Origin: a virus
Length of the DNA stretch: 23,126 nucleotides
Reading direction: 5' to 3' (one strand)
Virus record (IMG/VR): IMGVR_UViG_3300030106_006235
Span: 8,957-32,082 of that record
Notes under the pieces: model-generated
The model's input: only the letters and a program-made list of their open reading frames with translations
The model's database searches: none
Told to the model about the DNA's origin: nothing
Part shown: piece after piece, positions 5,217-21,191 of the stretch
How positions within the stretch are numbered: position 1 is the first letter of the stretch
Layout: the number at the start of each line of letters is the position of its first letter
Position numbers and translations under genes: made by a program

Positions 5217-7556
5217 ATGGAAGAATACAGCGATCACGACCATCCATTTAAGCCCATCGTGTCTCAATGGATGCAGAAAATAAAGCGCGCCAAAGAGCAA
5301 AAGAAAGAGCGATTTGGCAAGTACGCTGATGAAGCCATGAAGTTCTTTGATGGTTCTCATGACTGGATGTGGAAAGGCGAGTACTCCAAGGGAGATGGAG
5401 GGTTCCTCGAAAAGGGAACTCAGGGAGCCTTACCTACATTTAGAATGACAGTTAATAGGGTATTCGAGGCCGTTGCGCTTTTCGGCCCGGTACTCTATCA
5501 CAGAAATCCAACGATTCAGGTTTCAGCAAAGACATTACCTCCTATTGAACCTGCAATGTTGGGGATGGATCCCAATAATGAGCAGCAAGTAGAACAGACT
5601 AAACAGTTTGTATTCCAACAGGATCAGGAAAACTTTAAGAAACGTCAGTATGCGAAGCTTAAAGAACATTACCTGAATTGGCTCCAGCAAGAAAATAATA
5701 AAAAAGACCAGGCCAGGATGGCAATTAACGAAGCCATTATTAAGGGCATGAGTTTTCTCTGGACTGAAATGCACAGCCCGCATGGCTCCAATATACAAAT
5801 GCCACGCAGTGTTTATGTTTCTGTAGATGACATTGTTATCGACCCCGATGCTCAGTATTGGGAAGATGTACAGTGGATTGCACGCAGGTGTGTTCAGCCC
5901 GTATGGAAGGTAGAGCGTGAGTATGGGATCGAAGAAAGGATTCGTGGGAATAAATCATCAGCTAATAGACAGGCTGAAATAAAGTCCACCTCTAAAACTG
6001 AAAGCTCGGAATCTAAGCGCAAGGGTCATTCGTATGACCTTGTAGAATACTGGCAAGTCTATTCCAAAGGTGGCTTTGGGGCTCGGCTTAAGAAGGGTGG
6101 AATAAACAAAGACGTAGAGGAAAAGTTTGATTATGAACAATTCGGAGATTTTTGTTACCTTGCTGTTTGTGATGATGTTCCTTTTCCACTCAATATGCCT
6201 CCCGAATCTCTGGAGCTTTCGCCTGAAGAATTATTTGTCAGGTCGCAATGGCCGATACCATTCTGGACGGATGGGGGATGGCCATTCAGTAAAATCCATT
6301 TCTACGAAAAACCAAAAGAAGTCTGGCCAATCTCACTAATTAAGCCCGCGATTGGGGAATTGCGGTTTGTTAATTGGTGTATGTCATTCTTGGCTGATAA
6401 GGTAGCAGCTGCATCTACCACATATGTAGCTATCGCAAAGGCGGCTGGAGCAGAGATCCAGGATCAAATTAAAAATAAAATGGGGCCATACACCACCATT
6501 GAACTTAGTGAGATCTTTGGGCAAAGAGTACAGGATGTAGTATCTTTCCTAGATGCCCCATCTTTCAATGTAGACATCTGGAGAATGGTCTCAGAAGTAC
6601 TCGACATGATAGATAAGCGTACAGGGCTCACAGAGCTTCTGTACGGGCTTTCGGGTGGTACGCAGATACGTTCTGCCACAGAAGCTGATGTGCGTAATCA
6701 GAACGTGTCAGTGCGTCCTGACGACATGGCGAGTCGTGTGGAAGATTGGCTTAGCCAGTGTGCTCTTAAAGAGATGGAAGCTGCTGAATGGGCTCTCCAG
6801 AGACAGGACATACAACCTGTTCTTGGTGAAATAGGCTCCATGATTTGGGAGCAGCAGATACAGGCTCAGGAGTTTGAGAGAACTGTTCGGGATTTCGATT
6901 ATAGAATCGAAGCTGGATCTGCTCGTAAGCCTAATAAAACAAATCGAGTTCGCCAACTTAATGAGTTTGGCCAGATTATCATGCCTATGATGCAGCAATT
7001 TGTGCAGATGGGTATAGACCAACCATACAATGCCTTCCTGCGAGATTGGGCTAAAGCCAATGAGCTTGATGCCGAGCCTTACATTATAGATATGCAAGAG
7101 ATGCAAGCTGAACAGGAAGCCCAGCAAGGAGATGAGCCTGATCCAGAAGCACAAGCCCAAGAACAGCAAATGCAGATGCAGCAGCAGCAAATGCAAATGG
7201 AAATGCAGAAGATGCAGGTGGACTTACAGTCTAAGCAACTTGAAATGCAGATTAAACAACAGGAAGTTGCAATCAAGAAAGCTGAGTCTGAGGCCAAGAT
7301 ACAAGAATCGCAGGCTAAACAACAGCAAGTATCTGTCTCACAGACCCAAGCTGCTCAAAAATCTCAATTAGATGCACAGGTTGCATCTTTGCAGAATCAA
7401 AGACATACCCAAGAAATGCGGCATGATGCCGAGAAACATAACCAAGACCTACGTCAGGATCAGGAACGCCATCAAATGGAATTAGAATTCATGAAGGCAA
7501 AAGCTGATGCTGAAAAAGAAGCAAGAAGGCAAAGGCAATTTAATGTCCAAGCATAG
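5217..7556 (+). CDS. Portal protein with long Gln/Met-rich helical C-terminus
   Basis: This 779-residue protein is the dodecameric ring at one capsid vertex through which DNA enters and leaves. Portal-type features include FRMTVNRVFEAVALFGPVLY near residue 77, VYVSVDDIVIDPDAQYWEDV around residues 198-217 (the 'di.iDp.a....da' signature), and a stem/crown-like segment LTELLYGLSGG..IRSATEADVRNQN near residue 470. From about residue 625 to the end it is a continuous Gln/Met/Lys/Glu-rich helix (QMQMQQQQMQMEMQKMQVDL onward). Long C-terminal helices form the barrel in P22-type portals. It is longer than most T7-like portals because of this tail. The Shine-Dalgarno is weak (AGG, 5206-5208). Its stop overlaps the next start by 14 bases. 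Confidence 0.87.
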   Translation: MEEYSDHDHPFKPIVSQWMQKIKRAKEQKKERFGKYADEAMKFFDGSHDWMWKGEYSKGDGGFLEKGTQGALPTFRMTVNRVFEAVALFGPVLYHRNPTIQVSAKTLPPIEPAMLGMDPNNEQQVEQTKQFVFQQDQENFKKRQYAKLKEHYLNWLQQENNKKDQARMAINEAIIKGMSFLWTEMHSPHGSNIQMPRSVYVSVDDIVIDPDAQYWEDVQWIARRCVQPVWKVEREYGIEERIRGNKSSANRQAEIKSTSKTESSESKRKGHSYDLVEYWQVYSKGGFGARLKKGGINKDVEEKFDYEQFGDFCYLAVCDDVPFPLNMPPESLELSPEELFVRSQWPIPFWTDGGWPFSKIHFYEKPKEVWPISLIKPAIGELRFVNWCMSFLADKVAAASTTYVAIAKAAGAEIQDQIKNKMGPYTTIELSEIFGQRVQDVVSFLDAPSFNVDIWRMVSEVLDMIDKRTGLTELLYGLSGGTQIRSATEADVRNQNVSVRPDDMASRVEDWLSQCALKEMEAAEWALQRQDIQPVLGEIGSMIWEQQIQAQEFERTVRDFDYRIEAGSARKPNKTNRVRQLNEFGQIIMPMMQQFVQMGIDQPYNAFLRDWAKANELDAEPYIIDMQEMQAEQEAQQGDEPDPEAQAQEQQMQMQQQQMQMEMQKMQVDLQSKQLEMQIKQQEVAIKKAESEAKIQESQAKQQQVSVSQTQAAQKSQLDAQVASLQNQRHTQEMRHDAEKHNQDLRQDQERHQMELEFMKAKADAEKEARRQRQFNVQA

Positions 7557-11415: not shown

Positions 11416-14121
11416 ATGCCAAACATTACAACCTTTAAGGGTCTTATTACAGATAGCGATGGGGGCGATTTGCCACCAGGCTCGTCTAAGGAGCAGAAGA
11501 ATGTCGTCACCTCAGTAAATGGTGAAATGACACCTAGGCAGGGAATACAGCCAGCCACCTTTAGTGCGACTGAAACCATTGGCAGTGGATACAATACATT
11601 TCAAAAGATGTGTTTCTGTAAGACTAGAACTGGTGAAGTTATAGGTGTAAATGGTATTGATAGAGGGTTTATCTGGAACGGGATAAGCACAGACTCCGTT
11701 ACTCCGCTTGGCATAGAAGCACCAGCTGCAACGCCTACGATTACAAGAGCAGCTATCACTACAGTAAGTAATGTCACGAACTCTAGTGGAAAATATAAAA
11801 TAACTACCAGTGCCGATCATGGATTCTCAACTGGTAATACTGTTCTCATTGGAAATATAACAGGTACAGGCTCTGTCCCTGGCGATCTGAATGGCAAGAA
11901 GCATGTGATAACGGTTACAAGTACAACTGCTTTTACTATAGATGGCTCTACTCATTCAGCAGGATATGCTGGTGGTGGAGCTTGTTCTTTAGATGGTACT
12001 GGAACAACTAAAGGTGATTATTTATGTGCTTATAGGTACGTTGATTTACAATCTACTCCTGTTTATAGCAATATTACGACTGGAACGAAGGTCGAAGCTT
12101 TAACTTCTGACAAGTTAACATGGAGTTCTTTGTCTGCTCCAACTGAAAGCAGAGTAGATAGAATTCAACTCTGGAGAACTACGGCGGGTGTTACTAATGT
12201 ATTTTTTCTTATTGCGGAATTTGCTGTATCTGGCAGCATTACTACATCAGCAGATGCTTCGGGAAAGATTCGCTTCACAGTTCCGTTAGGACACGGATTG
12301 GTTGTTGGCCAGAACTTCACTGTTGCTGATAGTTCTGTGGGTGCAGATAATGCAACACATGCAGTTACAGCTGTAACCGACACTACTGTGACAACAGATA
12401 CCAACTCAACTGGTGGTAGCCATTCAGGCTCTGGTGGTACATGGTCTGCCCCTACTAGTGCCTATGAGGACAATGTGGATGACGACACTCTCAATCTCTC
12501 TGAAGGCGATAATATTTTAATAGTTGTAGCTAATCCCGGGACGGATAATACTATTATTGCTAGGAGGTTTGTCCCCCCACCAGACGACATGGCTTATTGT
12601 GTAATGTTTCAGGATAGGTATTTTTATTTCGGGGTAGTGAATTATAACGTGGGTACTGTCGGTACAGGGGGTTCAGCCACAAATACTTTGACTGGATCAG
12701 GGACAGCCTGGACTACAGCAATGGTTGATAGGTACATAGAAATAGAAGGTCAATCAGAAGCTGTCAAGATTACGGCTAGAGGCAGTGCTACCCAGCTTAC
12801 CTTAGAAAAAAACGTCACTGTAGCTAATGGAACTAAATATGTAATCTATCCAGAGAAATCCAGGCGTAGAACAATATATTATTCTTACCAAGATGAGCCT
12901 GAGAGTGTACCTGCAAGTAACGCAATGATCTTGCAGGAGAACTCAGGCGATGACGATGCTATTGTGGGAGCAATGCCATACGGGCCGTATCTATATATCA
13001 TCTCTCAAAGGCATAAGTACGCTTTAAGTTATAGCCAGGATCCAGTTAAAGATGGTTCGATTAGATACCTAGATGATAGAGGTGCATTTAATCACGATTG
13101 CTGGGATTACTTCGAGAACGAAGCCTATCTAATGGATGACTCTGGATGCTATAAGTTCAGCGGTTCAAATTCCGAATCTATATCGGAGCCTGTACAAGAT
13201 TTATTTAGGAAAGATGGAGATGGGGACAAGGTAGACTTTACTAAGTCAGCCAATTTTTTTGTTAAGGTGGATAGACTTAAGGAAAAGGTTTACTTCTTCC
13301 TGTGTTTTGTAGGTGATTCGGGTAATTATCCAACAAGAGCTTTGGTCTATAATATTCGACGAGAATCATTTGACCCAATGCACTATCCCATACAGATTAC
13401 AGCAGCCTCTATGGTTGAAAAGAACGGTCAAACACGGCTGATATTCAGTGCTGAAAATGAAAAAATATATTTAGCAGACGAGGGCAATACGGATGTAGTT
13501 ACCTCGGAGACTAAAGGCACCGTCACATCTAGCACTGCGACTACTTTAGTAGACAGTAGCAAGACATTTGTTTCCGCTATGGTAGGAGCCTCTGTTTATA
13601 TCTACGAAGGTACTGGGAAAGGTCAAAGACGAACTATCTTAACCGCAAGTAGCCATACGCTAGGTGTATCTGCATGGACGACAAACCCAGATACAACCAG
13701 CAAGTATATTATTGGAGCTATTGAGTGGAACTGGAAGACAGGGAGCTTCCCATTCGTTGAGTCAGAGGAAACAGAGGATCGGGAAATTGTATTAAACTTC
13801 GATCCAACAACAAACAATCAATCTGTCGATATGAGGTTTTACTACAACAACGATAGTGCACCCATTGCATTTGAGATAGCTCAAGATTTAGGTGAAGCTG
13901 TAAAAATAGAATACGATAATCGCCAGGATGTAGTTGTCCATATGGGTAAGGACTATGATTCCTTGCAAGAATCTACTGGACAAGAATCATTTCACTTTGA
14001 TGGAATGGCATCTTTCTTGGCATATTCAGATCACAAGGTAGCCTTAGAGCTTCGTGGTTATTCGGGAACAGATAGGCCTAAGATACAGGCCATTAACATA
14101 AAAGGGGTTGGAGGACAGTAA
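11416..14121 (+). CDS. Tail nozzle, tail tubular protein B (T7 gp12)-like
   Basis: This 901-residue protein probably forms the beta-rich hexameric nozzle of a short tail. The N-terminus has the typical opening: FKGLITDSDGG, LPPGSSKEQKNVV, then NGEMTPRQG. The central part has propeller-like strands (AIVGAMPYGPYLYIISQRHK, EAYLMDDSGCYKFSG, LVYNIRRESFD). Four small beta modules are inserted: two 'HGFSTGNTVLIG...LNGKKHVIT' type (about 123-193 and 273-345), resembling the FCCH domain found in phage proteins, and two 'GTAWT..MVDRYIEI' or 'GTGKGQRRTI' type (about 413-482 and 701-770). The modules explain the length, somewhat above T7 gp12. No Shine-Dalgarno precedes ATG 11416, 14 bases after the adaptor stop, so translation may be coupled. 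Confidence 0.65.
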   Translation: MPNITTFKGLITDSDGGDLPPGSSKEQKNVVTSVNGEMTPRQGIQPATFSATETIGSGYNTFQKMCFCKTRTGEVIGVNGIDRGFIWNGISTDSVTPLGIEAPAATPTITRAAITTVSNVTNSSGKYKITTSADHGFSTGNTVLIGNITGTGSVPGDLNGKKHVITVTSTTAFTIDGSTHSAGYAGGGACSLDGTGTTKGDYLCAYRYVDLQSTPVYSNITTGTKVEALTSDKLTWSSLSAPTESRVDRIQLWRTTAGVTNVFFLIAEFAVSGSITTSADASGKIRFTVPLGHGLVVGQNFTVADSSVGADNATHAVTAVTDTTVTTDTNSTGGSHSGSGGTWSAPTSAYEDNVDDDTLNLSEGDNILIVVANPGTDNTIIARRFVPPPDDMAYCVMFQDRYFYFGVVNYNVGTVGTGGSATNTLTGSGTAWTTAMVDRYIEIEGQSEAVKITARGSATQLTLEKNVTVANGTKYVIYPEKSRRRTIYYSYQDEPESVPASNAMILQENSGDDDAIVGAMPYGPYLYIISQRHKYALSYSQDPVKDGSIRYLDDRGAFNHDCWDYFENEAYLMDDSGCYKFSGSNSESISEPVQDLFRKDGDGDKVDFTKSANFFVKVDRLKEKVYFFLCFVGDSGNYPTRALVYNIRRESFDPMHYPIQITAASMVEKNGQTRLIFSAENEKIYLADEGNTDVVTSETKGTVTSSTATTLVDSSKTFVSAMVGASVYIYEGTGKGQRRTILTASSHTLGVSAWTTNPDTTSKYIIGAIEWNWKTGSFPFVESEETEDREIVLNFDPTTNNQSVDMRFYYNNDSAPIAFEIAQDLGEAVKIEYDNRQDVVVHMGKDYDSLQESTGQESFHFDGMASFLAYSDHKVALELRGYSGTDRPKIQAINIKGVGGQ

Positions 14122-14985: not shown

Positions 14986-15918
14986 ATGGTAGGTGTGATG
15001 CAGGATCAAATGCCTCAAGGCCCCGGTGGGGTTTGGGGGCATGGCCCGCAGGGGCAGCCATTGAATTTCCAGCAATGGATGCAGTATCAGGAAATGCTTC
15101 GTCGTCAGCAGTATTTCGATTACATGCGTTGGATGCAAATGCCAGGTAATCAATCGCCTTACGGTAATAATCATATAGCTAACTGGATGTGGAATTCTTT
15201 TAATACCGCACTCCCAAATATGATTGGCGACTGGTACAAGCGTCAGCAGTACTACGACATGTGGAATGCTAGTCGAAAAGATAAAATCTGGATGGATAAC
15301 TTCTTAATGAAGCAGCATCTTGACTCGATGGCATTTAAGGGTGACTTACTAGATATGCTTCGAGGTGTATTCCAACCTGGAGGCACACTATCTGGTCTTG
15401 GTAATGCTATGGCTACGGCCATGGGTGGTTTAACTAACTTGCCGTGGTTCCAGAATGTAGATAAGTCGCAATCACAGTCCGATGCTAAAGGTACTGCCGT
15501 TGTGGATACTGGTATATCTAAGCAGGGAATGATTAACAAACCTCACAATCGTAGGATTGGCAGGGCACTTAAAGGAAGACGGGCTAAGGGAGGAACAGGT
15601 GGTGCCATTGCCAATGCACTATTTGACTCCATCAGAGGAAGCCAAACTCCTCAAGGTCTTAAGATTGCCAAGCAGTTATTCAACAGAAATGTTGGGGATA
15701 GAGCTAAAGGCAATATTGAAGCTCTTGGCTCTATGATGAAAGGTTACAAAGACGCATCTGCAAACGAACTTAAGGCCCTTGACACGAAACGAAAACTGCA
15801 TTCAGCCCGAACGGCTGCTGGCCCCAAGATGGCTCAGATGTATGGAAACATGCTTCAGGATATTCTTGGCGGATTTGGCGGCATATTTGGTGGTGGAGGC
15901 GGAGGTTTTAATATATGA
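14986..15918 (+). CDS. Hypothetical Trp/Met/Gln-rich protein, possible ejection protein
   Basis: This is a 310-residue protein of unknown family. ATG 14986 has AGGT at 14977-14980; a second in-frame ATG at 14998 is possible. The first 110 residues are very rich in Trp, Met, Gln and Tyr (FQQWMQYQEMLRRQQYFDYM, NWMWNSFNTALPNMIGDWY), probably helices. The middle contains GGTLSGLGNAMATAMGGLTN and basic GRALKGRRAKGG. The C-terminus is hydrophobic and Gly-rich (MLQDILGGFGGIFGGGGGG). Such Gly-rich hydrophobic ends occur in phage proteins that enter membranes, so an internal or ejected virion protein is plausible, but this is inference from composition and position after the tail fibre. Its end overlaps the start of the Hint protein (ATGA). 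Confidence 0.65.
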   Translation: MVGVMQDQMPQGPGGVWGHGPQGQPLNFQQWMQYQEMLRRQQYFDYMRWMQMPGNQSPYGNNHIANWMWNSFNTALPNMIGDWYKRQQYYDMWNASRKDKIWMDNFLMKQHLDSMAFKGDLLDMLRGVFQPGGTLSGLGNAMATAMGGLTNLPWFQNVDKSQSQSDAKGTAVVDTGISKQGMINKPHNRRIGRALKGRRAKGGTGGAIANALFDSIRGSQTPQGLKIAKQLFNRNVGDRAKGNIEALGSMMKGYKDASANELKALDTKRKLHSARTAAGPKMAQMYGNMLQDILGGFGGIFGGGGGGFNI

Positions 15919-17036
15919 GCTATTACGAGCAAATGATCCGGCAAGCACTTACTGATCTTGCTGGAAACCCCACCCAAGGCGGTAATCTTACTAGCCCATA
16001 TGACCAATATGCTGCCGAAGTATTAGGTATAGTTCACCAGCCTGGGCCTGAAGAGCCACCGCCTGAGCCCGAACCACCAGAGCCACCACCTAGGCCTGAG
16101 CCCGAACCACCAAAACCACCACCTAGGCCTGAGCCCGAGCCGCCGAAGCCACCGCCTAGGCCGGAGCCTGAGCCGCCAAAACCACCGCCTAGACCAGAAC
16201 CAGAACCACCAAAACCACCTCCGCAGCCTCCAACTTGCTTAGTCGGTAGCACTCCTATCGCTACGCCTGATGGAGAAGTTGAGCTGCAAGACCTAGAGCT
16301 TGGAGATGAGGTTATAACCCACAATGGAGTTGGTGTGGTTAAAGCTAAAGGCTCTCACGAGGTGGGTCGTATATATCGTATTACGCTAGAAAACGACACC
16401 ATACTGGAGTGTTCTCCAGATCATCCATTGGCAGTTTCTGGCGTAACTGAAGACTTAGCTGACAAAGAACAGTACGTCGAAGCAAAAGATATAAAATATG
16501 GAGACAAGGTACTTACGCCAGATGGCGAAGTGATGGTCGAAGAGTCGGAAACTCTAGAAGAAGATACTGTTGTATACAACTTAACAGTAGAGTCCGATCA
16601 TACTTATATTAGTGCTGGTGTATATAGCCATAATAAGTGGCCACCTTGGCCTCCAGAGCCAAACCCTCCATACCCATACCCTCAGCCTTGGCCTGAGCCT
16701 TGGCCATCGCCTTGGCCTGAGCCTCCAATCGAGCCATGGCCGGAGCCTGAACCCTTGCCTTGGCCTGAGACTCCAGATATTAGATTCGAGGATCCTAATG
16801 TAGGCGGATCAGTCTTCCCAGAAGAAGGCGATCCTGGCTACACAGAAGATCGTGCCCCAGCAGATTTTAGATCAAACATCTCAATCACAGAGATGCCACC
16901 ATTTGGTTTCTATGATGCTGGACAAGGCGATGTAGCTGGATGGATGCTCCCGGTTTCGCAAGGAACTAACCTTCCTTCGTATGTAGCGCAACAATCAGGT
17001 GGCCCAATGCCACCACTATTTCAAGCTTTGAGTTAG
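15915..17036 (+). CDS. Hint (intein-like) domain protein with Pro-rich flanking arms
   Basis: This 373-residue protein begins in an ATGA overlap, with GGAGG at 15901-15905. Residues 1-45 are a short N-terminal region; 50-104 are five 11-residue units of PEPEPPKPPPR type. Residues 108-240 form a complete Hint domain: block A CLVGSTPIATPDG (C108), block B ECSPDHPL (S167, H170), block F VVYNLTVESDHTYI (H229) and the terminal HN (H239, N240). About 133 residues is mini-intein size, with no homing endonuclease. The residue after N240 is Lys, not Cys, Ser or Thr, so standard splicing lacks its second nucleophile; this resembles B-type bacterial intein-like (BIL) domains, which cleave at either end. 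The C-terminal arm is Trp-Pro-rich, then a 90-residue acidic/Gly region. A virion role is inferred from position. Confidence 0.8.
   Translation: MSYYEQMIRQALTDLAGNPTQGGNLTSPYDQYAAEVLGIVHQPGPEEPPPEPEPPEPPPRPEPEPPKPPPRPEPEPPKPPPRPEPEPPKPPPRPEPEPPKPPPQPPTCLVGSTPIATPDGEVELQDLELGDEVITHNGVGVVKAKGSHEVGRIYRITLENDTILECSPDHPLAVSGVTEDLADKEQYVEAKDIKYGDKVLTPDGEVMVEESETLEEDTVVYNLTVESDHTYISAGVYSHNKWPPWPPEPNPPYPYPQPWPEPWPSPWPEPPIEPWPEPEPLPWPETPDIRFEDPNVGGSVFPEEGDPGYTEDRAPADFRSNISITEMPPFGFYDAGQGDVAGWMLPVSQGTNLPSYVAQQSGGPMPPLFQALS
16062..16226 (+). repeat. Five tandem 33-bp units encoding Pro-Glu-Pro repeats
   Basis: Five in-frame 33-base units (starts at 16062, 16095, 16128, 16161 and 16194) encode PEPEPPKPPPR, with variation only at one Lys/Glu in the first unit and the last Arg/Gln. 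Synonymous codon changes between units show they are not a very recent expansion. The repeat forms a stiff, extended arm directly before the Hint domain. Confidence 0.9.
16686..16769 (+). repeat. Trp-Pro-rich repeat region after the Hint domain
   Basis: Three exact copies of CCTTGGCCTGAG (16686-16697, 16710-16721, 16758-16769) lie in a stretch encoding PWPEPWP-like motifs. It forms the first part of the arm C-terminal to the Hint domain, with spacing too irregular to be a clean tandem array. Confidence 0.7.
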
Positions 17037-17042
17037 TGAGTT

Positions 17043-20000
17043 ATGGCTTTATCAAATCCATTTAAGGGTAAGTCTACCGAAGAAATCGCAAGTATCTTCG
17101 ATAGAGTTTACAAAAACACTTGGCAGCAACCAGCTGACCGGCAGGATAATCTTACTGCTGAAGATATATCTAAGGGTGTTGTTGTAAGTGATTACTTAAG
17201 GGATTTGCAAGCTACCCCTGAGACTTTTGGGGGTGAAGAGAATAAGCCAGATGAAGGCGAAGCTAGCAAAATGGGGTTTTCTGCTAGGTCAGGAATGACC
17301 AATGTAGGAGCCGAGCCCTGGAAAAAGCTTGAAGATGATTTTAAAAGAAATCTTGTTGAGTTTCATGGAAGAGGTAAGGACGACGAAGGGGGGATAGGCT
17401 TAGGCCAAACCCTGACAGGGGAAGGAGGCTATGACAACTGGGATGATTATGTTGATCAAGCCGCTGCCGCTGTAAGGGGTAAGCTACCAGCAGAGCCACC
17501 CCCTCCTACGCAAGAAGCTACCCAGCTTACGGGCTTGAATGATCAATACAAAAGAATTCAAGATCGCATGAACGGGGTTTATGGCCCCGATGGAATGGAA
17601 CTTGCCGAAGGAGATCCTGATGATATTAACGGTGATGGACAGCTAACTCCGGCTGACTTAAATGCTCTTGGTCAACAAATACGAGACCTTGAGGGTGTTG
17701 TTACGCAGCAAGAGCAAGAGGCTCAGCAACCTGTTGATGATGGAACTCCTACTTATAGTGCAGGTCAATGGTTGGATTACCTCTGGGGAACCGAACCATA
17801 TCACGGTAATGATTGGTTCAATGTGGGGGTTCCTCAGCCTAACGCAGGTGATCCTCATTCTATTATTGTTGCTCCTGATGAAAACTTTGAGGGGCAGTTC
17901 CAGCAATTTGTAGCAGAGAACTACCCAGCCCTTGCTGAGATCATGGTTCCAGAAGGATCCCAAAGGGAATTTGGTGGGAAGTATGGTACTGCTGTTAGAG
18001 AGTTTGAGTTTGGTCAAGGCTCTTTAGGATGGCAGGCTGGCACAGACCCAGGAAGAAATAGAATTTTATTTTCTACTCTTCCTGACAACCCGGCGTTCCA
18101 GAACCTCTTTATTGGGCAAATTGGAGAACAGATTAGGCAAGAGGCTGCAAATGTAGTAAATGCTTTCAAAGATGCAGGGATGGGTACAATCCTGAATTCC
18201 CTCAAGCCATTCGGTATGACGGATGAAATTATAAATTCTATTCAGAACCTAGATCCAGGAAGTGCAGGCCTTGCACTTACTAAGGAGAATGCTGATAGAA
18301 TTATGACCTATGTCTATAGCATGGAAGGTCTATATGGGGAGGGATATTGGGGTAGTCGTGATGCTTCGCAGCTCATGTACGACATGTCTCCAATGCTAAC
18401 AGCAGTCATTCCTATACCCAGAACAACTTTGCACTTCTTGCAGCTTCAAGACGGGACTGATCCCAATAACATGGAAAACTGGAAGCCAGTGTCATGGACT
18501 ACCAGTGTTATCAATCTTCCATTAACCAATATTCAAAATGCAATCGTTGAACGTACAACCGCAAACCCTCAAGACTTGCAGCAGTTTGTTGACTTCTTCA
18601 AGGACATGTATGGTGAAGGTGATCCATTAGCACTGCAGCGCAATTCCCAAATGGCAGAGTGGGAACAGTACATCCCAGAAATCCCAGAAGGGTATACAGG
18701 CGTAGAAGACGAAGTAAATCTATACAACCCTGATGCTCAACAGTGGTACTCTGGATCATCTACTTGGGCACCAGAAATAGGACAGGGTGGATGGACTGAT
18801 ACACCTCCCGAGTTCTCTTACGAGGAAAGAGATCCTTACACTGGAGAAATCAGTACGAAGTTTATGCCAGGCGAAGAGGATGTTGTTGAGCCAGTAACTG
18901 AGCCAGAAGAAACAGATACAACTGGAACTGAAACTGGAACTGAAACCGAAACAACTCCGACTGATACAACTGATTCCGATGCTTACACTGGCGAGACTTC
19001 GGATGATGCCGCTGGAGCAGCTGACGATGCAGGCGAGCAGGGTCAGCAAGATGATATTTATCACCCAGAAGGAAGTAACTTTATAACCAGCGGTGTAGCA
19101 GAAAGCGTCCAAGGTTCGGAGCAAGCCTCGCAAATTGAAGACATTATGGATCAAGCAGAAAATGATCCATTGCTTCAGGATGAAACGCAGAATGAAGAAG
19201 TCCAAGAGAGTCTTGATACCGGAAGAATATGGACAATCAAGGATTATCTCGATGGAAGTTATGAACGCTGGAGAAGAAGCCAGACTGACTTCAAACTAAA
19301 GTATGGCTGGACTACTGCTGATATTAATATCACAAACTACTTTGAGTACGACCATTATTGGGATCATATCAGAAGAACTAATTCAGATTACATAAAACCA
19401 TCTAACATATTGATGGAAAAAATTAGGGAGTACGATGCTAGATACGCAGAAATAACCTCAATAGCTCAAGTCAATGGATTAACTTACGAGCAAACCTATC
19501 CTCTCCTCAAGAAGTTATATGATAACTTCAACAATACCATAAACAATGGTACTTATGATGACTGGAGAAGGTACATGCCAGGTACTCAAAACATGAATCG
19601 TAAGTACGATCCAGGAATGATTGATTACAGTAAGTGGAAACCTCAAATGGGAATTAATCCCGGCAGTAGATCTTATGCAGAGCAAGAAGAGCGTAGACAA
19701 AAAATTCTAGATGACATGGAAAAAGCACAAGCTGAAGGAAACGAAAGTTGGTTGCGAAGCTTGGAAATGCAGCTAGATAATATTCGATTTGTACAGGGAG
19801 CATCTAAAGGAGCTGTTGGAGAATTCATTCCGGAAGATTGGTGGGCTAGAATTCTAGTCGGCCAGGCGTATGCCCCACAAGAATGGATTCAAAGAATGCT
19901 TGGGTGGGAAAAAGGAAATGAAGCTCACTCATGGCAAGTCAAGATGAAGAATTCTAAAGACTGGGAACGAAGAGACCCAACAGCCTTTAAGAATCAGATG

Positions 20001-21191
20001 TATGGCAAGTGGAGAAATAAGAAAGAACGTAGATGGACTCCTGCAAGCATGCAAGAAATTGGCCGCAAGTTTGGGTTATGGACTCCTGGACGAGGATGGC
20101 GAAAAGACGTTGCTGAGATTCTCGGTATAGGCAGGTTTGAAGAGAATAGGTACGACTTGAAGACGGTACTTAACGCCTCAGCCGGTGAGCTTCATGATAT
20201 GGCTCTAAACTATAAGCCTGCCACCTTCCGCTATACTCAGCCTGGTAGCACTCGCCATGAGACTTTTAGAATGATTGATGGCCCCGGTTATGGATGGTAT
20301 CACCCGAAACAGGGACTGGTATTCCATAGTAAGGACGACTACCGATACAACATAGGTAGAGAAGGTGGGGTAATGATTAGCAATGGAGTTATTACTCCAC
20401 TTACAGGTGGCCCTCCTTTCAATCTTAATAAGGTAAGACAAGGTAAAACAGATTGGGATAAGAACTTAGGATGGCACTTTGAGGGCATGACAAAACGAAT
20501 GACACCAGATCCTCACAAGAATGTTAATGTACGCAATCTTAACATGAACACTATTGCAGATGCTTTAATGGGTGCTAATTATGCCGACTCTTGGATCCAT
20601 GAAGAATTCAGGGCAATGGGAATTAAACCATTTGGACACATGCCAGTAGAAGGTATGGTTATACCAATCAGGGGCGATAAGAACCATATGTACGAAATCA
20701 AAGTTGGTAGTACTGCATGGAAGATGTTGCAGGCTGGTTATGGTATTAAAGATATTGTTAATCAAATTAAACCTACTGAACGATACTTTAGCGCCTGGAG
20801 AGAATTCAGAGCACCACATCAAGAAAGATTGTCTGCAGAACGTGCTCGGGCAGCAAGGGCATCAATGGATGCAGCCGCTGAAAAAGCAGCAGGGAGACGA
20901 GCAGAAGCTAGAGAACAAGAAATTCTGGCGATGAATTCAAAACTACAGCAATGGGCACTTAGAAAATGGAAGAGCTATGCCAAGAAGCGTGGATATAGCA
21001 GCTCTGCAATAGGAAACTTCCAGCGTTCTGGCCAGTGGTGGAATATGTTCGCTAGTAATAGAGTCTTTAAGCAAGACTTAGAAAATTATCTTAAGAAGCT
21101 AGGATTTACCTGGGCTGACCTTAGACCGCCTAATGTTAATTTTGAAGGCGGTAGGGGTACTTTACACGGGCAAGGAGTAAGGGCTAATTAA
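17043..21191 (+). CDS. Very large hypothetical protein, probable virion protein
   Basis: This is a 1382-residue protein, the largest in the window, unrecognised. It has two halves. Residues 1-605 look mostly globular, with a Pro patch near 150, an EF-hand/dockerin-type loop at 194-205 (DINGDGQLTPAD: D194, N196, D198, G199, L201, D205) followed by a Gln-rich helix. Residues 610-675 are an acidic Thr/Glu/Asp linker (TGTETGTETETTPTDTTDSD). Residues 700-1382 are rich in Trp, Tyr, Arg and Asn (WRRSQTDFKLKYGW, DWWARILVGQAYAPQEWIQR), then a Glu/Arg/Ala coiled coil (about 1253-1307) and a basic end. No lytic, protease or polymerase motif is visible. Its Shine-Dalgarno is weak. Size and position after tail genes fit an internal ejected protein or a large tail accessory; neither is proven. 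Confidence 0.7.
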   Translation: MALSNPFKGKSTEEIASIFDRVYKNTWQQPADRQDNLTAEDISKGVVVSDYLRDLQATPETFGGEENKPDEGEASKMGFSARSGMTNVGAEPWKKLEDDFKRNLVEFHGRGKDDEGGIGLGQTLTGEGGYDNWDDYVDQAAAAVRGKLPAEPPPPTQEATQLTGLNDQYKRIQDRMNGVYGPDGMELAEGDPDDINGDGQLTPADLNALGQQIRDLEGVVTQQEQEAQQPVDDGTPTYSAGQWLDYLWGTEPYHGNDWFNVGVPQPNAGDPHSIIVAPDENFEGQFQQFVAENYPALAEIMVPEGSQREFGGKYGTAVREFEFGQGSLGWQAGTDPGRNRILFSTLPDNPAFQNLFIGQIGEQIRQEAANVVNAFKDAGMGTILNSLKPFGMTDEIINSIQNLDPGSAGLALTKENADRIMTYVYSMEGLYGEGYWGSRDASQLMYDMSPMLTAVIPIPRTTLHFLQLQDGTDPNNMENWKPVSWTTSVINLPLTNIQNAIVERTTANPQDLQQFVDFFKDMYGEGDPLALQRNSQMAEWEQYIPEIPEGYTGVEDEVNLYNPDAQQWYSGSSTWAPEIGQGGWTDTPPEFSYEERDPYTGEISTKFMPGEEDVVEPVTEPEETDTTGTETGTETETTPTDTTDSDAYTGETSDDAAGAADDAGEQGQQDDIYHPEGSNFITSGVAESVQGSEQASQIEDIMDQAENDPLLQDETQNEEVQESLDTGRIWTIKDYLDGSYERWRRSQTDFKLKYGWTTADINITNYFEYDHYWDHIRRTNSDYIKPSNILMEKIREYDARYAEITSIAQVNGLTYEQTYPLLKKLYDNFNNTINNGTYDDWRRYMPGTQNMNRKYDPGMIDYSKWKPQMGINPGSRSYAEQEERRQKILDDMEKAQAEGNESWLRSLEMQLDNIRFVQGASKGAVGEFIPEDWWARILVGQAYAPQEWIQRMLGWEKGNEAHSWQVKMKNSKDWERRDPTAFKNQMYGKWRNKKERRWTPASMQEIGRKFGLWTPGRGWRKDVAEILGIGRFEENRYDLKTVLNASAGELHDMALNYKPATFRYTQPGSTRHETFRMIDGPGYGWYHPKQGLVFHSKDDYRYNIGREGGVMISNGVITPLTGGPPFNLNKVRQGKTDWDKNLGWHFEGMTKRMTPDPHKNVNVRNLNMNTIADALMGANYADSWIHEEFRAMGIKPFGHMPVEGMVIPIRGDKNHMYEIKVGSTAWKMLQAGYGIKDIVNQIKPTERYFSAWREFRAPHQERLSAERARAARASMDAAAEKAAGRRAEAREQEILAMNSKLQQWALRKWKSYAKKRGYSSSAIGNFQRSGQWWNMFASNRVFKQDLENYLKKLGFTWADLRPPNVNFEGGRGTLHGQGVRAN
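18921..18944 (+). repeat. Two 12-bp tandem units in acidic linker
   Basis: ACTGGAACTGAA occurs twice in tandem (18921-18932, 18933-18944) and a partial third follows. It encodes the TGTE repeats of the acidic linker in the 1382-residue protein, a site where linker length may vary by slippage. Confidence 0.6.

Follow-up and report, generated by a model that had tools for sequence, protein, structure and literature searches.

The question raised by this locus is what a Hint domain with an intact active site does inside a probable phage virion protein in which the residue directly behind the terminal His-Asn of the domain (+1) is a lysine. The window analyzed here, a stretch of 23,126 nucleotides, is part of a 34,732-base IMG/VR virus record, and the gene concerned, P0001 (15915..17036; + strand, as for all window features given below), is an open frame for a probable virion protein of 373 residues, with its start ATG and the upstream stop codon overlapping as ATGA. 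The Hint domain (residues 108-240, 16236..16634) lies between an N-arm (residues 1-107, 15915..16235), which is Pro-rich from about residue 43 and consists of 64% proline over residues 43-106, and a C-arm (residues 241-373, 16635..17033), which is Pro/Trp-rich to about residue 300, has no match in Pfam and contains Lys241 as the sole lysine among its 133 residues. An earlier note on this DNA, made from the letters alone, had described two different Pro-rich arms, and this is borne out by their distinct repeats: the N-arm contains a 33-bp tandem repeat of 4.8 copies encoding units of the PEPEPPKPPPR type (16061..16219, Tandem Repeats Finder) and the C-arm contains Trp/Pro repeats at 16678-16775.

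The identity of the domain was established by profile matches and by the predicted fold. On P0001, PT-HINT (5e-8) and Hint_2 (1.1e-6) from Pfam both exceeded the curated cut-off, as did the NCBIfam models TIGR01445 (intein_Nterm, spanning residues 108-173) and TIGR01443 (intein_Cterm, residues 220-240); the best PDB sequence match was 2lwy, a bacterial intein-like (BIL) domain (2.9e-5), and a phage-Hint profile, for whose building set P0001 itself was among the candidates, matched residues 108-240 end to end (1.7e-20). An AlphaFold2 model of the Hint, with an alignment of 57 Hints as input, reached a pLDDT of 92.4 and a pTM of 0.85. For the predicted fold, Foldseek ranked the two characterized BIL domains, 2lwy and Tetrahymena BIL2 (6y75), first and second among PDB entries, and VIA-align placed 2lwy (Z 19.9, rmsd 1.2 A, 127 residues, 30% identity) and BIL2 6y75 (Z 19.6) in a tie with the gp41-1 intein, which fell between the two at Z 19.7 (6qaz, Z 19.4). 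The active site is intact throughout, including Cys1, the block B histidine and the block G His-Asn. Cys108 occupies Hint position 1 (16236..16238) and aligns to Cys1 of 56 other Hints, an invariance imposed by the selection of rows, each of which had to have a Cys close to its start. His170, the block B histidine of SPDH (16422..16424), is invariant in the 57 aligned Hints and, unlike HTY, G and His-Asn, was not imposed by the search pattern described below. His229 of the HTY motif in block F (16599..16601) and His239-Asn240 in block G (16629..16634; TIGR01443 and the 57-Hint alignment) complete the set; the conservation of HTY, G and His-Asn among the aligned Hints is no evidence, because the search pattern imposes them. 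The earlier note had thus correctly read a complete Hint (C108, SPDH with H170, H229, H239-N240, followed by K241), and the profile search and structure prediction that it had proposed as a check returned Hint and intein profiles and a confident Hint fold.

To which kind of Hint does the domain belong? A-type BILs have a C-terminal His-Asn and no +1 nucleophile, and B-type BILs have no C-terminal motif (PMC7765530, PMC4031507). P0001 combines a Hint fold bearing Cys1 and the block B histidine with a His-Asn end, and carries Lys241 (16635..16637) in place of a Cys, Ser or Thr at +1, a loss that had already been recognized in the earlier note. Because the terminal His-Asn is present and the +1 nucleophile is not, the P0001 Hint fits, as judged from its sequence, the A-type BIL pattern; the B-type label of the earlier note is contradicted by His239-Asn240, and a B-type BIL is ruled out by this block G motif, which TIGR01443 recognizes above its cut-off. 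A class 1 intein is ruled out by Lys241 at +1 and by the insertion between low-complexity arms. The insertion site is not conserved, as homologues of P0001 carry unrelated linkers at the position of the Hint, and the view of the earlier note that the Hint lies between repetitive arms and not, as is usual for inteins, in a conserved enzyme site is supported. A tree of phage and bacterial Hints (134 columns, in which the described BILs were not placed) was poorly resolved and left P0001 as a lone deep branch. Under the class rule that we propose, a Lys in position +1 or +2 behind the His-Asn, P0001 has its lysine at +1, and it was left out when the rule was counted.

P0001 lies within a co-directed gene run that also includes a portal gene (5217..7556; phrog_156, 4.2e-13), a gene with a weak terminase-like match and one for a virion structural protein (phrog_3287, 1.6e-9); the portal gene contains, in its 3' part, a Gln/Met-rich 21-bp tandem repeat (7164-7216). 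The upstream gene (310 aa, 14986..15918) shows weak similarity to its positional counterpart in L003 and L005, and the downstream gene (1382 aa, 17043..21191), which belongs to the same module, has relatives in L003, L005, L012 and L050. The earlier designation as a probable virion protein therefore stands on position, syntenic homologues and neighbours, with no direct family match. With the portal as query for phage relatives, 59 loci matched, the majority being clear relatives and a few at the end of the list only weak matches. A search of 50,697 phage records revealed no relative of the terminase, so that on these data the phage group is an uncultivated one. In L050, L012 and L053, the gene in the place of P0001 encodes a small linker protein, either Pro/Gly-rich or acidic, which has no Hint and shares the last ~50 residues of P0001 (conserved C-terminal segment, residues 320-373, 16872..17033), with local alignment scores of 76, 61 and 55, respectively, against shuffled means of 24-26. 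No P0001-like gene was seen between its neighbours in L003 and L005. A Hint profile search of 16 viral records including the window's own, several of them fragments, found no Hint in the 15 related ones, and a search of IMG/VR with the whole of P0001, the Hint alone, the downstream gene and the C-terminal segment returned no second Hint-bearing homologue. Because the Hint is present here and was not found in the relatives examined, it is an added domain in a variable linker. The earlier view that it is not a parasitic element holds only in part: the setting argues for a processing function, but presence in one of 16 viral records, with three syntenic homologues lacking the domain, is a scattered distribution of the kind that inteins also show. 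A GTP cyclohydrolase-like protein of L001 carries a canonical intein with +1 Cys.

The recurrence of lysine behind the His-Asn, which the earlier note had missed, as it had the singular status of Lys241 in the C-arm, was assessed in two viral scans with the pattern HTY...G..SHN or HTY...G..VHN, in which +1 was free, and bacterial and archaeal genomes were also scanned with the SHN pattern, again with +1 free; all counts are among the matches listed. A profile kept 164 full mini-Hints with Cys1 among these matches, which formed 64 clusters at 50% identity. With P0001 left out, Lys stood at +1 or +2 in 45 of the 53 listed clusters that do not end in Cys, Ser or Thr, the 45 including those in which a Lys at +2 follows Ser or Thr, compared to an expectation of 8.2% from protein composition. 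The corresponding binomial value of 6e-41 ignores shared ancestry and is to be read only as "very large", and because the clusters share ancestry they do not amount to 53 independent events. Further along, at +3 to +12, lysine made up 3.6% of residues in the listed clusters, and none of the ten true-intein (Cys/Ser/Thr-end) clusters listed had Lys at +1 or +2. Arginine occupied +1 or +2 in two of the 53 non-intein clusters listed; this preference for Lys over Arg suggests, rather than proves, that the amine matters and not charge alone. Lysine was found at +1 in 17/17 members of cluster L120 and at +2 in 11/11 of L127, while L115 (15 at +2, one at +1) and L111 (ten at +2, one at +1) contain both positions, and inside clusters the neighbours of the lysine vary while the lysine is kept. 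Parsimony on the poorly resolved tree required 17 changes for Lys+1 and 13 for Lys+2, of which well-supported branches force five and three; from the many changes, the position appears to shift while the lysine stays. A scan of viral contigs carried out earlier for His-Asn-Lys with Pro-rich sequence, in which 13 of 43 loci had real Hints, was kept out of the statistics because the lysine was fixed in its pattern. In a profile sample from Alphaproteobacteria and Myxococcia, 50 His-Asn ends comprised 30 with Lys at +1 or +2, 12 with other residues and eight with Cys, Ser or Thr, counts in which one protein appears twice and the tail columns of the profile lean slightly to Lys; since 12 of the 50 sampled ends differ, the lysine rule is strong yet not universal for BIL-like Hints. 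We found no description of a Lys motif after His-Asn in an open-access library of the literature. Neither the fold nor the A-type pattern is new; what we have not found described there is that phage Hints have a conserved (x)Lys end, which sets the class apart from the inteins and toxin-type Hints sampled here.

The proteins that carry such ends include several from phage tails. Those of L237 and L267 match central tail fibre J, L237 carrying its Hint near the N-terminus and L267 at the C-terminus, and the Hint proteins of L115 and L127 match other tail families. Pro and Gly are more frequent in the flanks of the non-intein clusters than in those of the intein clusters. In 19 of the 53 non-intein clusters among the matches listed the protein ends no more than 25 residues after the Hint, and in many such Hints it stops 2-14 residues past the His-Asn-(x)-Lys. 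Among the hits read from cultivated-phage records with six Hint queries, one faecal phage contig had the motif (Ile-Lys), a Vibrio phage match was a canonical helicase intein with +1 Cys, and the Ruminococcus phage Hints carried Ser or Ala in that position; with these six queries, the Lys motif was not found in any cultivated phage. Some loci hold more than one domain: L076 (in an ORF of 2008 aa), L161 and L180 each have two Hint-Lys domains inside one ORF, and in L331 (HN-KCFIAGT...), L272 (HN-KDDGCFAED...) and L298 (HN-CDGCSCFLAG...) a second Cys-started Hint follows directly after the first, which suggests serial processing. In several Myxococcia genomes (L416, L457-L462), proteins about 400-580 aa long carry C-terminal Hints that have the motif HN-(V/T/A)K and a short tail.

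Among characterized systems, the A-type BIL of C. thermocellum (2lwy) shares with P0001 the Hint fold, the His-Asn end and the absence of Cys, Ser or Thr at +1. It is splicing-competent. Its +1 residue, in the work of Dassa et al. from 2004, is reportedly alanine; P0001 differs in its +1 lysine, in the strong lysine preference across its class and in having a phage virion protein as host. BIL2 from the BUBL1 polyubiquitin locus of Tetrahymena thermophila (6y75, 6tmm) likewise has no Cys, Ser or Thr at +1 and lies between independent segments, but it differs from P0001 in having Met at +1, ubiquitin-like flanks and a eukaryotic origin. Class 1 mini-inteins (gp41-1, 6qaz) have the fold and the catalytic motifs in common with the P0001 Hint, but they need Cys, Ser or Thr at +1 and sit in conserved enzyme sites; P0001 has Lys instead, and its Hint lies in a linker of low complexity. 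Pretoxin HINT (PF07591) of polymorphic toxins is one of the two Pfam families above the cut-off on P0001; such domains directly precede a C-terminal toxin domain, whereas the end of the P0001 C-arm is common to Hint-less syntenic phage genes. The self-processing module of the RTX protein FrpC (SPM, clip-and-link), which cleaves itself and transfers to a lysine epsilon-amine (PMC7078468), offers an analogy only, as it is an unrelated module with calcium-dependent Asp-Pro chemistry.

Based on these features, our leading reading, to which we give slightly less than even weight, is that P0001 contains an A-type BIL-like autoprocessing Hint in a flexible virion-protein linker, with Lys241 as a built-in amine acceptor, a role proposed for it as the only lysine of the C-arm and from the recurrence of Lys at +1/+2. 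An N-S acyl shift at Cys108 would turn the Thr107-Cys108 bond into a thioester, and His239 and Asn240 would cut the Asn240-Lys241 bond by Asn cyclization. Because +1 is lysine, the N-arm would be resolved by an amine, most likely that of the Lys241 side chain, to give an isopeptide between T107 and the epsilon-amine of K241; alternatively, once the C-side has been cut, the alpha-amine of Lys241 could serve as acceptor and leave an ordinary peptide bond. The Hint would be released and the two arms would end up joined or separated, so that the products named in the earlier note (1-107, 108-240 and 241-373) are plausible ones on the present sequence. We infer catalytic activity, this order of steps, the use of the lysine amine and the product in the virion. 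Precedent exists for both outcomes: for Tetrahymena BIL2, a BIL without a +1 nucleophile, the formation of isopeptides with lysine side chains has been reported (PMC8616854), and A-type BILs can ligate by way of a thioester, Asn cyclization and attack by the freed amine, although cleavage products dominate over splicing in BILs (PMC4031507). Counting against Lys241 as acceptor, the +1 residue of BIL2 is Met. The lysines reported as acceptors for BIL2 belong to separate domains or proteins, namely ubl5 or Ras (PMC8616854). Extended to a widespread class of phage Hints, in which the epsilon-amine of the +1/+2 Lys would take the N-flank from the Cys1 thioester before Asn cyclization frees the Hint, the proposal is a speculative one that we consider unlikely to hold as it stands. 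The main difficulty for splicing is the short C-tails: joining the arms would achieve little where the protein ends 2-14 residues on, and the lysine may there serve catalysis or folding, for example by releasing the Hint or aiding Asn cyclization.

A second reading is that the P0001 Hint is an ordinary A-type BIL which mostly cleaves, with some alpha-amine ligation, and in which the lysine side chain does not itself react but aids folding or Asn cyclization, for instance by placing a positive charge near the leaving amine. The mechanism is a published one, shown with a +1 residue other than Cys, Ser or Thr (PMC4031507), and a supporting role for the lysine would fit both its occurrence at +2 in place of +1 and the very short C-tails; pure charge, however, would also allow Arg, which was found in two clusters compared to 45/53 for Lys among the matches listed. 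We regard this explanation as doubtful, if clearly ahead of the others that follow. The thioester might instead pass the N-arm to an amine outside the protein, on a virion protein or the host surface, in a Hedgehog-like transfer that would cross-link or anchor the virion. With BIL2, the N-flank becomes attached to lysines in other proteins (PMC8616854), and many of the Lys-motif Hints stand at the C-terminus of tail proteins, but the sequence points to no partner, and an outside acceptor is unnecessary because the conserved lysine behind the Hint offers an internal one; we consider such a transfer improbable.

Alternatively, P0001 could carry a decaying selfish intein that has lost its +1 nucleophile, the gene being tolerated because the phage can do without the linker. 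Phages often contain inteins, and the occurrence of the Hint in one of 16 viral records, with three syntenic homologues devoid of it, would agree with this origin. All catalytic positions are intact, however, there is neither an endonuclease domain nor a conserved enzyme site, and the same replacement by Lys is seen repeatedly in Hints that have diverged widely, a pattern that decay would not leave; we hold this explanation to be slightly less probable even than transfer to an outside amine. That the Hint is an inert structural domain of the virion protein without autoprocessing seems very improbable, since the P0001 active site has kept Cys1, the block B His, the block G His-Asn and its other residues.

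BIL domains are usually described by what is missing, the +1 nucleophile. Should the lysine prove to be the acceptor, many phage Hints would share a fixed chemistry of their own, and the tail proteins of many phages would mature themselves by cutting or isopeptide joining that is hidden from annotation; were the reading for the whole class true, virion proteins would be spliced or capped through an isopeptide bond without ATP or partner enzymes. The recurrence of the lysine behind most of the non-intein Hints sampled from phages suggests that virus proteins may be cut or joined in a way that has received little study; it would also offer a possible means of producing lysine-linked proteins and would justify a look for branched peptides in virion proteomics.

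Other genes merit mention. Upstream of the window, the same phage, which has several Pro-rich proteins, encodes a 2OG-Fe(II) oxygenase (L062:2112-2768; PF13640, 1.1e-13) that might be a prolyl hydroxylase acting on Pro-rich arms. A membrane dipeptidase of family M19 (L062:5836-7110; PF01244, 2e-46) is unusual phage cargo, and two adjacent small genes (L062:989-1381 and L062:1363-1863) both start with MAGFETPKY and probably arose by tandem duplication. Matches to E1_FCCH (PF16190) in virion-like proteins at 11416-14121 of the window (weak) and at L115:1016-1990 probably reflect a shared beta-domain of tail proteins.
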